Shown here: piece after piece, positions 5,695-57,576 of the stretch
Layout of the letters: every line of letters starts with the position of its first letter
Position numbering within the stretch: position 1 is the stretch's first letter
From: Methanococcoides orientis
GTDB taxonomy: Archaea; Halobacteriota; Methanosarcinia; Methanosarcinales; Methanosarcinaceae
Assembly (NCBI RefSeq): GCF_021184045.1
Contig: NZ_CP073710.1
Span: forward strand, 2,366,685 to 2,430,684
Length of the DNA stretch: 64,000 nt
Reading direction: 5' to 3'
The notes under the pieces: model-generated
The model's input: the letters and a program-made list of their open reading frames with translations, nothing else
Told to the model about the DNA's origin: nothing
Databases searched by the model: none
Translations under genes and position numbers: made by a program

Positions 5695-6506
5695 ACAATT
5701 TTTTGCTTGCTCTTAAGACAAGTTTTGGTTTCCTTTCCACTATACCTGTGGGTATGACGATGGAAGGGTTTGATGAGCTGGTAAAGCGTAGCTATCTACA
5801 GACATTCGCAGGTGTGGTCCTGGGTCTTATGATCGGGGTCTTTGCTTTTATTACTGAGACTGTGATGCCGGACCAGATCAGTGCAATTCTTATCATGGTA
5901 TTTATCTACTATCTTACGGGGTTGAACCATCTTGATGGCCTGGGGGATTTCGGTGATGGAGCTACTGCTCACGGTTCACTTGAAAAGAAGATAAAAGCTC
6001 TCAAGGATGTTGCCCTCGGTATCGGGGGAGTGGGTTATGCAATTCTTGCATTGCTTGCTCTGTATGCATCAATTTCTGCTCTTCAGGCTGAACTCATATT
6101 CTTCTCTGACAATGCTGCGTTAATGCTTGCAGTCTCGTTACTTGTGGCCGAGATCGGTGCCAAGCAGGCGATGCTTACGGTTGCTGCATTTGGGAAACCC
6201 ATTCACGAAGGGCTTGGTTCCATGATAATCAACAGCACGACCTTCCCGAGATATGTAGTATCCTTCATACTTGGTATTGTAGCAAGCGTACTGGCTTTCG
6301 GTTCCATTGGAGTTATCGGATATCTGGCAGCCATAATTTCCGCATTTGTTATAATTAACATCTCCAACCGCCATTTCAAAGGTGTGAACGGGGATTGTAT
6401 CGGAACTGCAAACGAGATCGCACGTATCATTGTACTGATCGCAATAACTCTCATGGTGATCGCTATCAATAATGGAAATGGAGGATTGCTTTGGACGCTG
6501 TTATAA
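5691..6506 (+). CDS. cobS: Adenosylcobinamide-GDP ribazoletransferase (cobalamin synthase)
   Basis: Integral membrane CobS joins adenosylcobinamide-GDP with alpha-ribazole or its phosphate. The 271 residues carry about six or seven hydrophobic helices. The family motif appears as GLNHLDGLGDFGDGATAHG near residue 82, containing the Asp-rich Mg2+ site. The ATG overlaps the cobZ stop and the gene end overlaps the TTG start of cobY copy 2, so all five genes from 2596 are probably one transcript. Confidence 0.93.
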   Translation: MNNFLLALKTSFGFLSTIPVGMTMEGFDELVKRSYLQTFAGVVLGLMIGVFAFITETVMPDQISAILIMVFIYYLTGLNHLDGLGDFGDGATAHGSLEKKIKALKDVALGIGGVGYAILALLALYASISALQAELIFFSDNAALMLAVSLLVAEIGAKQAMLTVAAFGKPIHEGLGSMIINSTTFPRYVVSFILGIVASVLAFGSIGVIGYLAAIISAFVIINISNRHFKGVNGDCIGTANEIARIIVLIAITLMVIAINNGNGGLLWTLL

Positions 6507-7099
6507 TGGCAGGCGGGCAGGGACTTCGACTTGGAATGGGTGAAAAACCATGTGTCGAACTTCTTGGTAAACCTCTTATAAGTTACGTTATCGATTCTCT
6601 GGAAAAGTCTTCACACATCGAACGCATATTCGTAGCAGTGTCTCCTTCAACGCCCGCTACTGAAGAGCTTGTGAGGGAGAAATATGGTGATCATATACAG
6701 GAGATCAATACGGCAGGTGACAACTATGTAGGGGATATGGTCTATGCCGTGGAGAGTTCAGGTATAAAGGGTCCTGTGATGATAATAATGTCTGACCTTC
6801 CTCTTGTGACGCCGGCACTCCTGGATTCCATCATTGATGCCTATGAATCGTGTGAGGAAGAGTCAATGTCCGTTTTCATACCTCTTTCTCTTTGCAGCGA
6901 GGTGGGCATACGACCGGACACGGTCTTCAATTGGAGCGGTAAGCTAATTGTGCCTGCTGGCATTAATATTCTTGATGGGAAGCATATCAATGAGGAGCAG
7001 AAATATCATAATTACATGCTTGATGATCCTGAGATCGCTTTGAACATAAATACGGCGGAAGATCTGAAACGGTGCAAAAATATCCTCATAAATAGATGA
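6491..7099 (+). CDS. cobY: Adenosylcobinamide-phosphate guanylyltransferase CobY, copy 2
   Basis: Makes adenosylcobinamide-GDP from adenosylcobinamide phosphate and GTP, replacing bacterial CobU in archaea. The TTG start at 6491 is preceded by GGAGG at 6480-6484 and lies inside the end of cobS. The signature MAGGQGLRLGMGEKPCVEL is intact, with downstream GDNYVGDMVYAVE and PAGINILD. This is the better candidate of the two copies for the standard activity. It ends the cobamide operon, though the hypothetical gene at 7128 follows by 28 bases. Confidence 0.92.
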   Translation: MDAVIMAGGQGLRLGMGEKPCVELLGKPLISYVIDSLEKSSHIERIFVAVSPSTPATEELVREKYGDHIQEINTAGDNYVGDMVYAVESSGIKGPVMIIMSDLPLVTPALLDSIIDAYESCEEESMSVFIPLSLCSEVGIRPDTVFNWSGKLIVPAGINILDGKHINEEQKYHNYMLDDPEIALNINTAEDLKRCKNILINR

Positions 7100-7127
7100 T
7101 CTGCTTTAATATTCAAGGAGGCTAAAT

Positions 7128-7496
7128 ATGGTTGAATTCGCAATTCTGGGTGATAAAAAATATTCCATGCAAACAGTAAGGCTGGTTACGGGGAATGTCG
7201 CTGCTGGCACTGACATTCACAATATTCCTGAAGAGCAGCTTCTTCTTTGTGAGGCAATAGATGACCCATACCTTCTCCCCTTCCTTCTGGAGAAGTTCTA
7301 TATGATGGAGATCAAGGATGCAGAACAGTTCAGGTTGTGCCTTATAAGGGTGCAGGTCGATTCGGACATGCGCCTTAATGAAGATATTCAGAAACATCAG
7401 CACCGTGGATATGTTTCCCGAACGATAGAGAAATTGATGTATCGTGATATTTTTCTTGAGATCGTAAGGGAGGAAGATGTCGGTGTTGAGGCTTGA
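7128..7496 (+). CDS. Conserved-looking hypothetical protein
   Basis: A 122-residue soluble acidic protein that I do not recognise. The ATG has a strong AGGAGG site at 7115-7120. It has no signal peptide, membrane helix or cysteine motif; the only cysteines are isolated. The sequence looks globular, with an LLPFLLEKFYMMEIKDAEQF helix in the middle and a C-terminal IEKLMYRDIFLEIVREED segment. Its place 28 bases after cobY suggests possible cotranscription with the cobamide genes, but nothing in the sequence links it to that pathway. Confidence 0.7.
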   Translation: MVEFAILGDKKYSMQTVRLVTGNVAAGTDIHNIPEEQLLLCEAIDDPYLLPFLLEKFYMMEIKDAEQFRLCLIRVQVDSDMRLNEDIQKHQHRGYVSRTIEKLMYRDIFLEIVREEDVGVEA

Positions 7497-7722
7497 AATG
7501 ATTGTTGGATCGATGGTCGAATTGATGGTTCAATTCTGATCATCTGTGTGGAAATAAATCATTTTTTATATCATAACAAGGCATACTGGTATAGATAACA
7601 CAGATACTAATGGGTGCTTGTCTATATGAGTAGTGGGAAAAAGTATTCATTATGTCTGTCAGGATCTCATGATTCTATTTTAAAAATATCGATATGATCT
7701 AACTATATTATCAGGTGTAAAG

Positions 7723-8454
7723 ATGGCTGATGAAGTAACTCAAGAAAGGGTTAGCACGGGAATTCGTGGATTGGATGAAATGTTACGTGGGGGCTTCTTC
7801 AAAGGGACTGCTAATGTTGTCTCAGGAAAGTCCGGTACAGGTAAAACTATCTTTGGAACCCAATTCCTGATGGAAGGTATTGAAAAAGGCGAAACCGTGA
7901 TGTGCATCATCACATCCGAGGAATCCAAGTCTCTCGTACGTGAAATGCAAGCATCCTTCGGATGGGATCTCGATTCCATGGTCGCAGAAGGCAAACTGGT
8001 ATTTGTAGACATCACAGACCCAAGCCTTCGTCTCCAGAAGAGTGTGGAGATCGCTCCGACAGAGCTTATCAAGAGCTTCAAGAAACTGGTGGAAAGCAAG
8101 ATCGAGGAAACAAAACCTGATCGTGTGTTCATCGATTCCATTGAAGCAATGTTCCTTGCAATTGAGTCCAACTACAAGCTGCGCACATTGATCGATGATA
8201 TCTTTGGTATCTTCAGGAAACGCAATGTTACAGCTCTTGTAACCGTTGGTGTTATGTTCGGACTGGACGAGATGGTTGAATATGGTGCAGATGCTGTTGT
8301 CAAACTTGGTCGCGAGATCATAGGAAGCAACCTCCAGCGTACCATCTATGTAATGAAGCTCAGAGGTTCAGGCACCATCAACGAAGTTAGGGTACTCAAT
8401 ATTTCTGACAGTGGTATGGCTGTACTTGCTCAGTCACCATATCTTGAGAAATAA
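7723..8454 (+). CDS. KaiC-like RecA-superfamily ATPase, single domain
   Basis: A 243-residue protein with one KaiC/RadA-type ATPase core. The Walker A is GKSGTGKT at about residues 35-42 and the N-terminus ISTGIRGLDEML-like VSTGIRGLDEML is typical. The Walker B region is DRVFIDSIEAM. Only one domain is present, unlike the double-domain cyanobacterial KaiC, and no KaiB is nearby. Archaeal homologues are often tied to signalling or to the archaellum regulator ArlH-like group, but the role here is unknown. AGGTG precedes the ATG. An intrinsic terminator follows at 8473. Confidence 0.85.
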   Translation: MADEVTQERVSTGIRGLDEMLRGGFFKGTANVVSGKSGTGKTIFGTQFLMEGIEKGETVMCIITSEESKSLVREMQASFGWDLDSMVAEGKLVFVDITDPSLRLQKSVEIAPTELIKSFKKLVESKIEETKPDRVFIDSIEAMFLAIESNYKLRTLIDDIFGIFRKRNVTALVTVGVMFGLDEMVEYGADAVVKLGREIIGSNLQRTIYVMKLRGSGTINEVRVLNISDSGMAVLAQSPYLEK

Positions 8455-8472
8455 TATTAACGTATAAATGAA

Positions 8473-8501
8473 AAGGTGCCTTTCAGGTACCTTCCTTTTT
8501 T
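8473..8501 (+). terminator. Terminator after KaiC-like gene
   Basis: AAGGTGCC and GGTACCTT form an eight-position stem with one mismatch around a TTTCA loop, and a T-run follows at 8496-8501. It ends the KaiC-like gene. Confidence 0.65.
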
Positions 8502-8606
8502 ACTTTAAATATACTTAAGCTGTTTTTTGTTCGCATTACCACTTTAATTATTCACTTATCGACTTAATTATTTACTTATGTGGTCTGCTTTGTTTACTGG
8601 AAGTAT

Positions 8607-9290
8607 TTACAAAAGATACCAGTCCATATCGTTAGTTGAGTGGTCATCATGAACTCCCACGGTACGTTCCGGGATATTCAGTATACTTGTGATGGAGTCT
8701 GAAAAGTCCTGAAGATACTGGCGCTGGCTGAGGCTTCCATACTTAAAGCGCTTATTCGGGTTAGCGACCTCTTCCATAGTCTTCCTGTCAGGCACAATGA
8801 CAACGTCAATGTTGGTCATTTCAACTGCTTTTTCCATGGCCGTCCTGAAGTCGCCGATACAATATGCAATTCGGTGCTTGTAGTTATCGCGTGTTCTTTC
8901 CAGATACTTTGCAAGCCTCTCACTTTCCATCTTGATGAAATCACGTTTTATCTTAGCGACATTGCACTTCCCCATCATGAACTTATAATCAGTGAAAGGG
9001 TATTCGTTATCTATCTCCCGTGGAGTGATCCCGCAGGTGCCAAATACCACAACATGTGCATCCTCTTGTTCGAGTATGCCGAAGATAATGCGGTCATACA
9101 TCTTGTGTGAGGGGCTGGTATGATATGGCTTCCTCATGGCACAGGGTACGAAGATGCAAAAATCCCTCGTAGGGGGCTGGTATTCAGTAAGTACCCACTC
9201 ATTTGCACGTATCATGTCGGGGTGGTATATCAGTCGCTCTGTGTCCAGTGGTTCACTTGAACGTTCATTTTCAGGAATTATAGTTGTCAA
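8607..9290 (-). CDS. DUF5591 protein (archaeosine synthase-like domain, stand-alone)
   Basis: A 227-residue protein resembling the DUF5591 domain known from archaeosine synthase ArcS and related tRNA-ribosyltransferase proteins. The diagnostic N-terminal part is FVPCAMRKPYHTSPSHKMYD. No TGT catalytic or PUA domain is attached, so it is not a complete ArcS. The frame stays open to 9557, but that would overlap the regulator at 9403. I chose TTG 9290 because a strong TATA box (TTATATATATAG on the minus strand, about 9311-9322) lies 25 bases or so upstream, which fits a leaderless message. The next ATG would give a protein shorter by about 25 residues. Confidence 0.7.
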   Translation of the reverse strand: MTTIIPENERSSEPLDTERLIYHPDMIRANEWVLTEYQPPTRDFCIFVPCAMRKPYHTSPSHKMYDRIIFGILEQEDAHVVVFGTCGITPREIDNEYPFTDYKFMMGKCNVAKIKRDFIKMESERLAKYLERTRDNYKHRIAYCIGDFRTAMEKAVEMTNIDVVIVPDRKTMEEVANPNKRFKYGSLSQRQYLQDFSDSITSILNIPERTVGVHDDHSTNDMDWYLL

Positions 9291-55565: not shown

Positions 55566-55639
55566 GGGCCGGTAGCTTAGTCAGGCAGAGCGATGGACTC
55601 TTAATCCATCGGCCGAGGGTTCAAATCCCTTCCGGCCCG
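55566..55639 (+). tRNA. tRNA-Lys (CTT), copy 1
   Basis: A 74-base cloverleaf: acceptor GGGCCGG/CCGGCCC, anticodon loop CTCTTAA (anticodon CTT) on stem ATGGA/TCCAT, T-arm with TTCAAAT loop, discriminator G. The CCA is not encoded (CTT follows). Identical base for base to the copy at 57354. Confidence 0.97.
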
Positions 55640-55918
55640 CTTTTTATGAGATGCTAATTCTATATTCTAATTCTCTATCTTTAAATTTCAATCTGACTAT
55701 TTACAATCGGATCATTGTTGATATCAGGCTTACAAATGTTTCTCATGGGATCTTATCTTCCTCCCGAATTTTGTAGACTATTTTGGGGCAGTTTTATTTT
55801 CGTCTATAAACCCGGAGTAATGCTCAATACATTTGCTCGGTCTACCTACAAAAACTTATTATGTGATATTATCAATCATATAACAAAATAATAATTTTCA
55901 CAAAATTTAGTTTGTAAT

Positions 55919-57259
55919 GTGGCGGTATGTGTGAATAAAACAAACGTTATCCCGGTAGTGAAAGTCTGTATGCTTATGTGTGTACTCTTCCTCGTATTTT
56001 CAATGGGTGTTGTCAATGGAGGAACGGGGGAATCTCTTGATCCGGAATGGGTACAGATTTTTTTCGGAAAATCCAATGATAGTGTCGCTGGCTATTCTGT
56101 CCAGCAGACCACTGATGGAGGGTATGTACTGACAGGTTATTACAGCAGCTATCCTGAAAATCTGATCGTGGATGAATTTGATGATACTAATTGGGTAACG
56201 GAAGGAGTCTGCCTTATCAAGACCGATGCTTCCGGCACTCTCCAGTGGTTCAGGCTTTTTGATTCTCAATATGGTAATGAAGGCCAATCCGTACAACAAA
56301 CCTCCGATGGGGGTTACATCATAGCCGGTGAGTATGGGGGAAACAATCGTGATGTCTGGCTTATCAAGACCGATACTGAAGGCAGAAAGGAGTGGGATAA
56401 AACATTCGGTGGCCCTGAAGACGAAATGGGATTTGCTGTTGTGCAGACTTCGGACGGGGGATATATTGTTACTGGTTCCACATACTCGTACGGTCCGTAT
56501 GGGGAAAACATCTGGCTTATCAAAACGGATTCCAATGGCACTAAAGAATGGGATAAAGTATTCGGCGGTTCTGAACATGAAGGCGGGCGAGATGTTATAC
56601 AGATTTCAGATGGTGGGTATATTGTAACGGGGGGTAGCTGGCTTATCAAAACCGATTCTGATGGCAATGAGGAGTGGAATAAAACAGGCGTGGACGGCCG
56701 CTCTGTCTGGCAAACTGCGGATGGAGGTTATGTTATAGCCGGTGAGATTGGGTACGATCTACAGCTTACCAAAACAGATCATTTCGGTAATACGGAATGG
56801 AGTAAGACATTTGAGGAATTTGGTACGGGAACTGCTTATGCTGTCCAACAAACTCTCGAGGGTGGCTATATTTTAACCGGCAGTTACTATGCAGGTTAGG
56901 ACAATGTTGATGTCTGTCTTATAAAAACCGATTCATCAGGTAATAAAGAATGGGAGAAATCGTTTGGAGGCGGTGGTGAAGACCGGGGCTTTTCCGTCAA
57001 ACAATCCACTGATGGGGGATATGTACTCACAGGTGTCACTTCCTCTCAGGGACCCGGAGGGGAAGATGCCTTCCTGATCAAGACCGATCCGAACGGCAAC
57101 GCCGGGGATGGTAAGATGACTCCTGTGCCAAGAAATGTGTCCCATTTGCAGGATACTATATCTCTTGTCGGCTTCATGGTCATTTTCCTGTTGCAGCTCC
57201 TGGCTATCCCACTTCTTGTATTCCTGATACTCGTTTATCTGTGGAAAAGGTATAAATGA
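55919..57259 (+). CDS. Secreted/membrane beta-propeller-like repeat protein with in-frame TAG
   Basis: Signal sequence (VCMLMCVLFLVFSMGVVNGG), then about eight repeats of some 50 residues with consensus SDGGYIVTG and WLIKTDSNGTKEW, probably a beta-propeller. A TAG at 56897-56899 interrupts the frame, in the loop of a repeat. Reading on gives DNVDVCLIKTDSSGNKEWEK, another complete repeat, a transmembrane helix (ISLVGFMVIFLLQLLAIPLL) and KRYK before TGA at 57257-57259. So TAG is probably read as pyrrolysine, or is a recent nonsense mutation. Start GTG 55919 or GTG 55931. Flanked by the two identical tRNA-Lys genes. Confidence 0.8.
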
Positions 57260-57353: not shown

Positions 57354-57427
57354 GGGCCGGTAGCTTAGTCAGGCAGAGCGATGGACTCTTAATCCATCGG
57401 CCGAGGGTTCAAATCCCTTCCGGCCCG
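57354..57427 (+). tRNA. tRNA-Lys (CTT), copy 2
   Basis: Identical over all 74 bases to the gene at 55566, including the immediately following CTT. Flanking sequence outside the gene differs. A TATA box lies at 57308-57317. Confidence 0.97.
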
Positions 57428-57576
57428 CTTTCAATTCATATCTTTTTTCGGAATAATTATTGAATAACTATATTGAATAATTAACTACTGTAATGCTTAT
57501 GATGTCTTACATATCATATTGATAACCTATGCCACGTATAGTGTTGCATACTAATTTCCATCTTTAGGTGAGAACA

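Follow-up and report, generated by a model that had tools for sequence, protein, structure and literature searches.

Does the TAG codon inside the gene of a propeller-like membrane protein of Methanococcoides orientis end the protein, or is it read as an amino acid? The gene lies in the window, by which we mean the whole stretch of 64,000 nucleotides that was analyzed. As an earlier note on this DNA had described, the frame from position 55919 meets TAG at 56897–56899 and then runs through 119 open codons to TGA at 57257–57259. The features of the locus are as follows.

55566..55640, + strand: tRNA-Lys(CTT), upstream copy, identical in sequence to the copy at 57354
55931..57259, + strand: propeller-like membrane protein gene, read through TAG; 442 aa from GTG at 55931, 446 aa if GTG at 55919 is used
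55946..56008, + strand: putative N-terminal hydrophobic helix, signal or anchor (model helix 10–30; hydrophobic sequence)
56897..56899, + strand: in-frame TAG, putative pyrrolysine (residue 327 if numbering begins at 55919), predicted to sit in the blade 6 loop that joins strands 3 and 4; codon shared by three species
56900..57256, + strand: 119 sense codons behind TAG, predicted to encode the remainder of blade 6, blade 7, and the C-terminal transmembrane anchor
57137..57253, + strand: putative C-terminal transmembrane helix with basic tail (model helix 407–445; sequence)
57354..57428, + strand: tRNA-Lys(CTT), downstream copy, identical to the upstream copy

The repeats and the membrane anchor that had been reported downstream of TAG were present: VCLIKTDSSGNKEW, another GGYVLTG repeat, and a hydrophobic C-terminus. 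The frame from 55919 stood, with a minor correction of its start: GTG at 55931 is the likelier start codon, because in the orthologue of genome G003 the GTG matching 55919 lies in another frame, while position 55931 is matched there by an ATG in the correct frame; the sequence GGCGGT preceding 55931 would also fit a start at this position. The extension behind TAG had a coding score of +17.1 bits. This positive score, the full-length homology to orthologues of other species, and the identical TAG column in all three congeneric orthologues show that the open frame behind TAG is not a product of chance.

Full-length orthologues were found in three of the 11 genomes of the genus: in this one and in G003 and G005, each 62% identical to it and each with a single TAG. 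In the orthologue alignment, a check that the earlier note had proposed, TAG occupied exactly the same codon (GSYYAG-TAG-D) in all three sequences, and all the indels among them were in frame. The dN/dS values (NG86) between the TAG-bearing orthologues were 0.24–0.37 downstream of TAG versus 0.27–0.38 upstream. The observed downstream pN/pS values of 0.26–0.45 were matched by 0–1 of 1000 neutral simulations, and simulated downstream parts acquired on average 0.8 to 2.5 stop codons, while the real orthologues have none. The part behind TAG is under purifying selection. Orthologues from two other genera of the same family (g2 and g10) were single uninterrupted proteins lacking TAG; the TAG column corresponds in them to glycine (GGC or GGT), the residue homology being approximate in this indel-rich loop. 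TAG codons seen upstream in the g10 orthologues were rejected as irrelevant, since they are positioned before the start.

The machinery for pyrrolysine (Pyl), a check likewise proposed earlier, adjoins the window and is complete in the genome (pylT, pylS, pylB, pylC, and pylD). The pylS gene lies about 0.25 kb beyond the left edge of the window, with pylB, pylC, pylD, and MtbA behind it, and the gene of tRNA-Pyl(CTA) sits in the gap separating pylS from the window, at a distance of 71 bases from window position 1. PylS, PylB, PylC, PylD, and MtbA all scored above the NCBIfam cut-offs. Each of two MtmB genes of the same genome contained a single TAG, in line with what Pyl methyltransferases should show. 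A search for changes in the stop recognition of the release factor found none: the NIKS and YxCDSSF motifs of aRF1 are the usual ones, as in its relatives. With its motifs unchanged, aRF1 may still recognize UAG, so that some termination at TAG, in competition with decoding, would be possible. No read-through RNA stem common to the three orthologues was found downstream of TAG, their minimum-energy folds being different.

The use of TAG was analyzed in 464 kb of the 2.49 Mb genome, consisting of the window and twenty 20-kb stretches; the counts refer to ORFs of at least 100 aa with a codon score, which are not a curated gene set. The earlier statement that the other genes of the window avoid TAG as a stop was borne out: among 59 ORFs of 100 aa or longer, selected for little mutual overlap, 33 ended in TAA, 25 in TGA, and one, the propeller gene, in TAG. 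In the whole sample, 349 coding-like ORFs were found, of which 174 ended in TAA, 171 in TGA, and four met TAG. All four ran on past TAG with a positive coding score; thus, none of the 349 clearly ended in TAG. Four further TAG-ended ORFs of the sample had negative coding scores and were set aside as spurious.

Besides the propeller gene, the four comprised a subtilase, an FrhB-like protein, and a short protein that matched S-layer sequences weakly. The subtilase with an fn3 domain (L042, 9451–13404, − strand) had its in-frame TAG inside the Pfam domain Peptidase_S8, near the domain end, and the FrhB-like F420 protein with YHS and ferredoxin domains (L034, 17686–18858, + strand) inside the Pfam domain FrhB_FdhB_C. 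The latter TAG was common to six of ten congeners, the other four having tyrosine (TAT). The gene of the biotin carboxylase subunit of this genome (L253, C1:166518–168011) carried an in-frame TAG immediately ahead of the conserved GVTTNIPF motif; at a search cut-off of E ≤ 1e-120, which gave one match per genome, this TAG was found in six species including this one (in G005, L232, 14466–15959), and isoleucine or valine in the other four possessing the gene. The gene of the small subunit of DNA polymerase D contained TAG in G001, G002 (L227, 3801–5423), and G008, and glutamine (CAG) in the other eight congeners. The scale of the phenomenon goes beyond the earlier note: in the sampled genome TAG hardly ever serves as a stop, and it stands in frame in other genes, including that of biotin carboxylase.

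Regarding the remaining members of this set, the short protein (L045, 12896–13501, + strand) combined a hydrophobic N-terminal stretch, the weak S-layer match, and the in-frame TAG. A match in G004 to the N-terminal part of the subtilase also had a TAG inside.

Other genomes were sampled as well. In genome G059 of the g10 genus, in contrast, TAG terminated 18 of 177 coding-like ORFs, and in nearly every case the extension beyond it was short or non-coding; the codon serves as an ordinary stop in this genus, whose propeller orthologue has glycine at the site. TAG-ended coding-like ORFs made up 5 of 336 in G005 and 4 of 168 in G002, and several of them were clearly read-through genes. A few had tails of just 4–26 codons and could be either real TAG stops or short Pyl extensions. 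Two ORFs of G005 (L235, 14757–15284; L187, 19260–19637) had TAG followed by 7–8 codons to the next stop and allow the same two readings. A TnpB gene of the IS200/IS605 type in G005 (L180, 10363–11475, − strand) contained an in-frame TAG before a zinc-finger-like C-terminus. A very large surface-type protein of G002 (L226, ORF 6189–8867, − strand, and beyond) had TAG after 892 codons and continued for 1271 codons further.

No Pfam family matched the propeller protein above its cut-off, and no match to the MtmB, MtbB, or MttB families was found in it. The AlphaFold2 model, built on 14 sequences (mean pLDDT 83, pTM 0.77), contained an N-terminal helix (10–30), 28 strands with one additional short strand, and a C-terminal hydrophobic helix (407–445). 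The 28 strands were grouped into seven four-stranded blades, which predicts a seven-bladed beta-propeller. Residue 327, encoded by TAG, fell between model strands 317–326 and 329–337, which are the third and fourth strands of blade 6. According to the model, termination at TAG would leave 5¾ of the seven blades and no anchor. The closest relatives of solved structure were the CylK propellers (PDB 7ron, 7fh6), similar both in the repeat sequence (E 4e-36) and in fold (Foldseek E 6e-19, TMq 0.66). CylK is an alkylating enzyme from cyanobacteria, whereas the archaeal propeller has predicted transmembrane segments; its assignment to the CylK repeat type is by repeat sequence and fold.

The TAG at 56897 is very probably a sense codon read as Pyl via the neighboring pyl cluster, with the full-length anchored propeller as the main product. 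This was the main reading of the earlier note, and it is now supported by the pyl genes, the conserved codon, the constrained downstream part, and the near-absence of TAG stops from the sampled genome; from these we infer the residue itself to be Pyl and its decoding to be efficient. The cluster next door would make Pyl-tRNA(Pyl), which would decode TAG 56897 as pyrrolysine, giving mainly the full-length membrane-anchored seven-bladed propeller. The simplest account would be a reassignment, TAG being read as Pyl wherever it is present, in a clade where this codon is practically no longer a stop and may occur in ordinary genes. Since TAG appears to be tolerated in ordinary genes of the clade, a special signal at the propeller gene would not be necessary. 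Pyrrolysine in the hairpin loop of the model is probably a tolerated residue and not a catalyst.

The earlier note had also suggested that partial read-through could give two forms of the protein. In such a dual-product gene, termination by some ribosomes at TAG would set free a form lacking the anchor, and others would insert Pyl and yield the anchored one, perhaps under regulation by the supply of methylamines. The unchanged stop-recognition motifs of aRF1 would allow this, and condition-dependent amber suppression has been described for the bacterium Acetohalobium arabaticum (PMC11467909). However, TAG lies in the model inside blade 6 of the seven, and the short form would be left with an unclosed and probably unstable propeller. 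Moreover, TAG also occurs within the genus in the genes of biotin carboxylase and the PolD small subunit, which suggests routine read-through without a switch; because of these genes, routine read-through is the more likely mode and two forms need not be assumed. We consider a dual-product gene unlikely.

A surface function of the residue itself has distinctly little probability. Pyl in the conserved loop would, through its electrophilic imine, bind an amine or cross-link a partner, and the propeller would then be a functional Pyl protein outside methyl transfer. At about 62% residue conservation, retention of one codon across three sequences would be unremarkable, and the shared TAG alone therefore does not indicate functional conservation at the site.

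A recent nonsense mutation in a dying gene, the main alternative of the earlier note, would agree with the loss of the gene in close relatives. The propeller gene was absent from eight congeners, including the close relatives G004, G009, and G010, and is thus dispensable. Two identical tRNA-Lys(CTT) genes flank it in all three TAG-bearing species; G004 keeps both tRNA genes, 281 bp apart (L127/L134), with a mere remnant of the last codons of the propeller gene between them, and the seven other congeners without the gene have one copy of tRNA-Lys(CTT), the flanking genes being matched where compared. The natural reading is that in the single-tRNA congeners, at least in the relatives of this genome (G000), the gene would have been lost via recombination between the tRNA repeats. 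However, the TAG is older than the split between G000 and G003/G005 (62% identity), and the downstream part is still in frame, free of stops, and constrained. The conserved codon and the downstream constraint exclude a recent nonsense mutation for practical purposes, and we regard it as very improbable.

The locus could also hold two genes, one for a truncated secreted protein and another for a downstream part translated on its own. Nothing but the TAG itself suggests this, and it is extremely improbable, since the downstream part would start in the middle of a modeled hairpin and the g2 and g10 orthologues are uninterrupted. Decoding of a sense TAG by another suppressor or near-cognate tRNA instead of tRNA-Pyl is conceivable insofar as the identity of the inserted residue comes from inference, but its probability is negligible in a genome with the complete pyl set, including a CUA tRNA, and Pyl-type MtmB genes.

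Reading of TAG as Pyl thus places the propeller gene among known systems. Kivenson and co-workers (Science, 2025, 'An archaeal genetic code with all TAG codons as pyrrolysine') reportedly described archaea that read every TAG codon as Pyl, M. burtonii being said to be among the organisms studied. As reported for that code, TAG is nearly absent here as a stop, in-frame TAG occurs outside methyltransferases, and the pyl set is full; the lists of that paper may already include the position-conserved TAG codons found here in the genes of biotin carboxylase, the FrhB-like protein, and the propeller. The propeller gene shares in-frame TAG and its probable decoding by tRNA-Pyl with the Pyl methyltransferases MtmB, MtbB, and MttB, but differs from them in its predicted propeller fold, the position of Pyl in a loop, and the lack of any sign of a catalytic role. 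Pyl proteins named in a review are methylamine methyltransferases, transposases, and the tRNA-His guanylyltransferase Thg1 (PMC8211752); other in-frame amber genes were called rare (PMC11467909), and predicted read-through ORFs were reported earlier (PMC1242214, PMC3639795). The transposase, Thg1, and predicted read-through cases likewise have TAG within non-methyltransferase genes of Methanosarcinales; unlike them, the propeller gene has a codon conserved between species, in a sampled genome where TAG stops are practically missing.

The propeller gene is a further, well-supported example of a known phenomenon, the Pyl code, and, for Pyl in a surface protein that is not a methyltransferase, a clean case built on the comparison of species. 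The sampled genes of the genus treat TAG as sense, and standard annotation would truncate such proteins at TAG, the biotin carboxylase and the DNA polymerase D subunit included. The series of species with TAG in some and TAT, CAG, or ATT in others can be used to trace how a stop codon turns into a sense codon.
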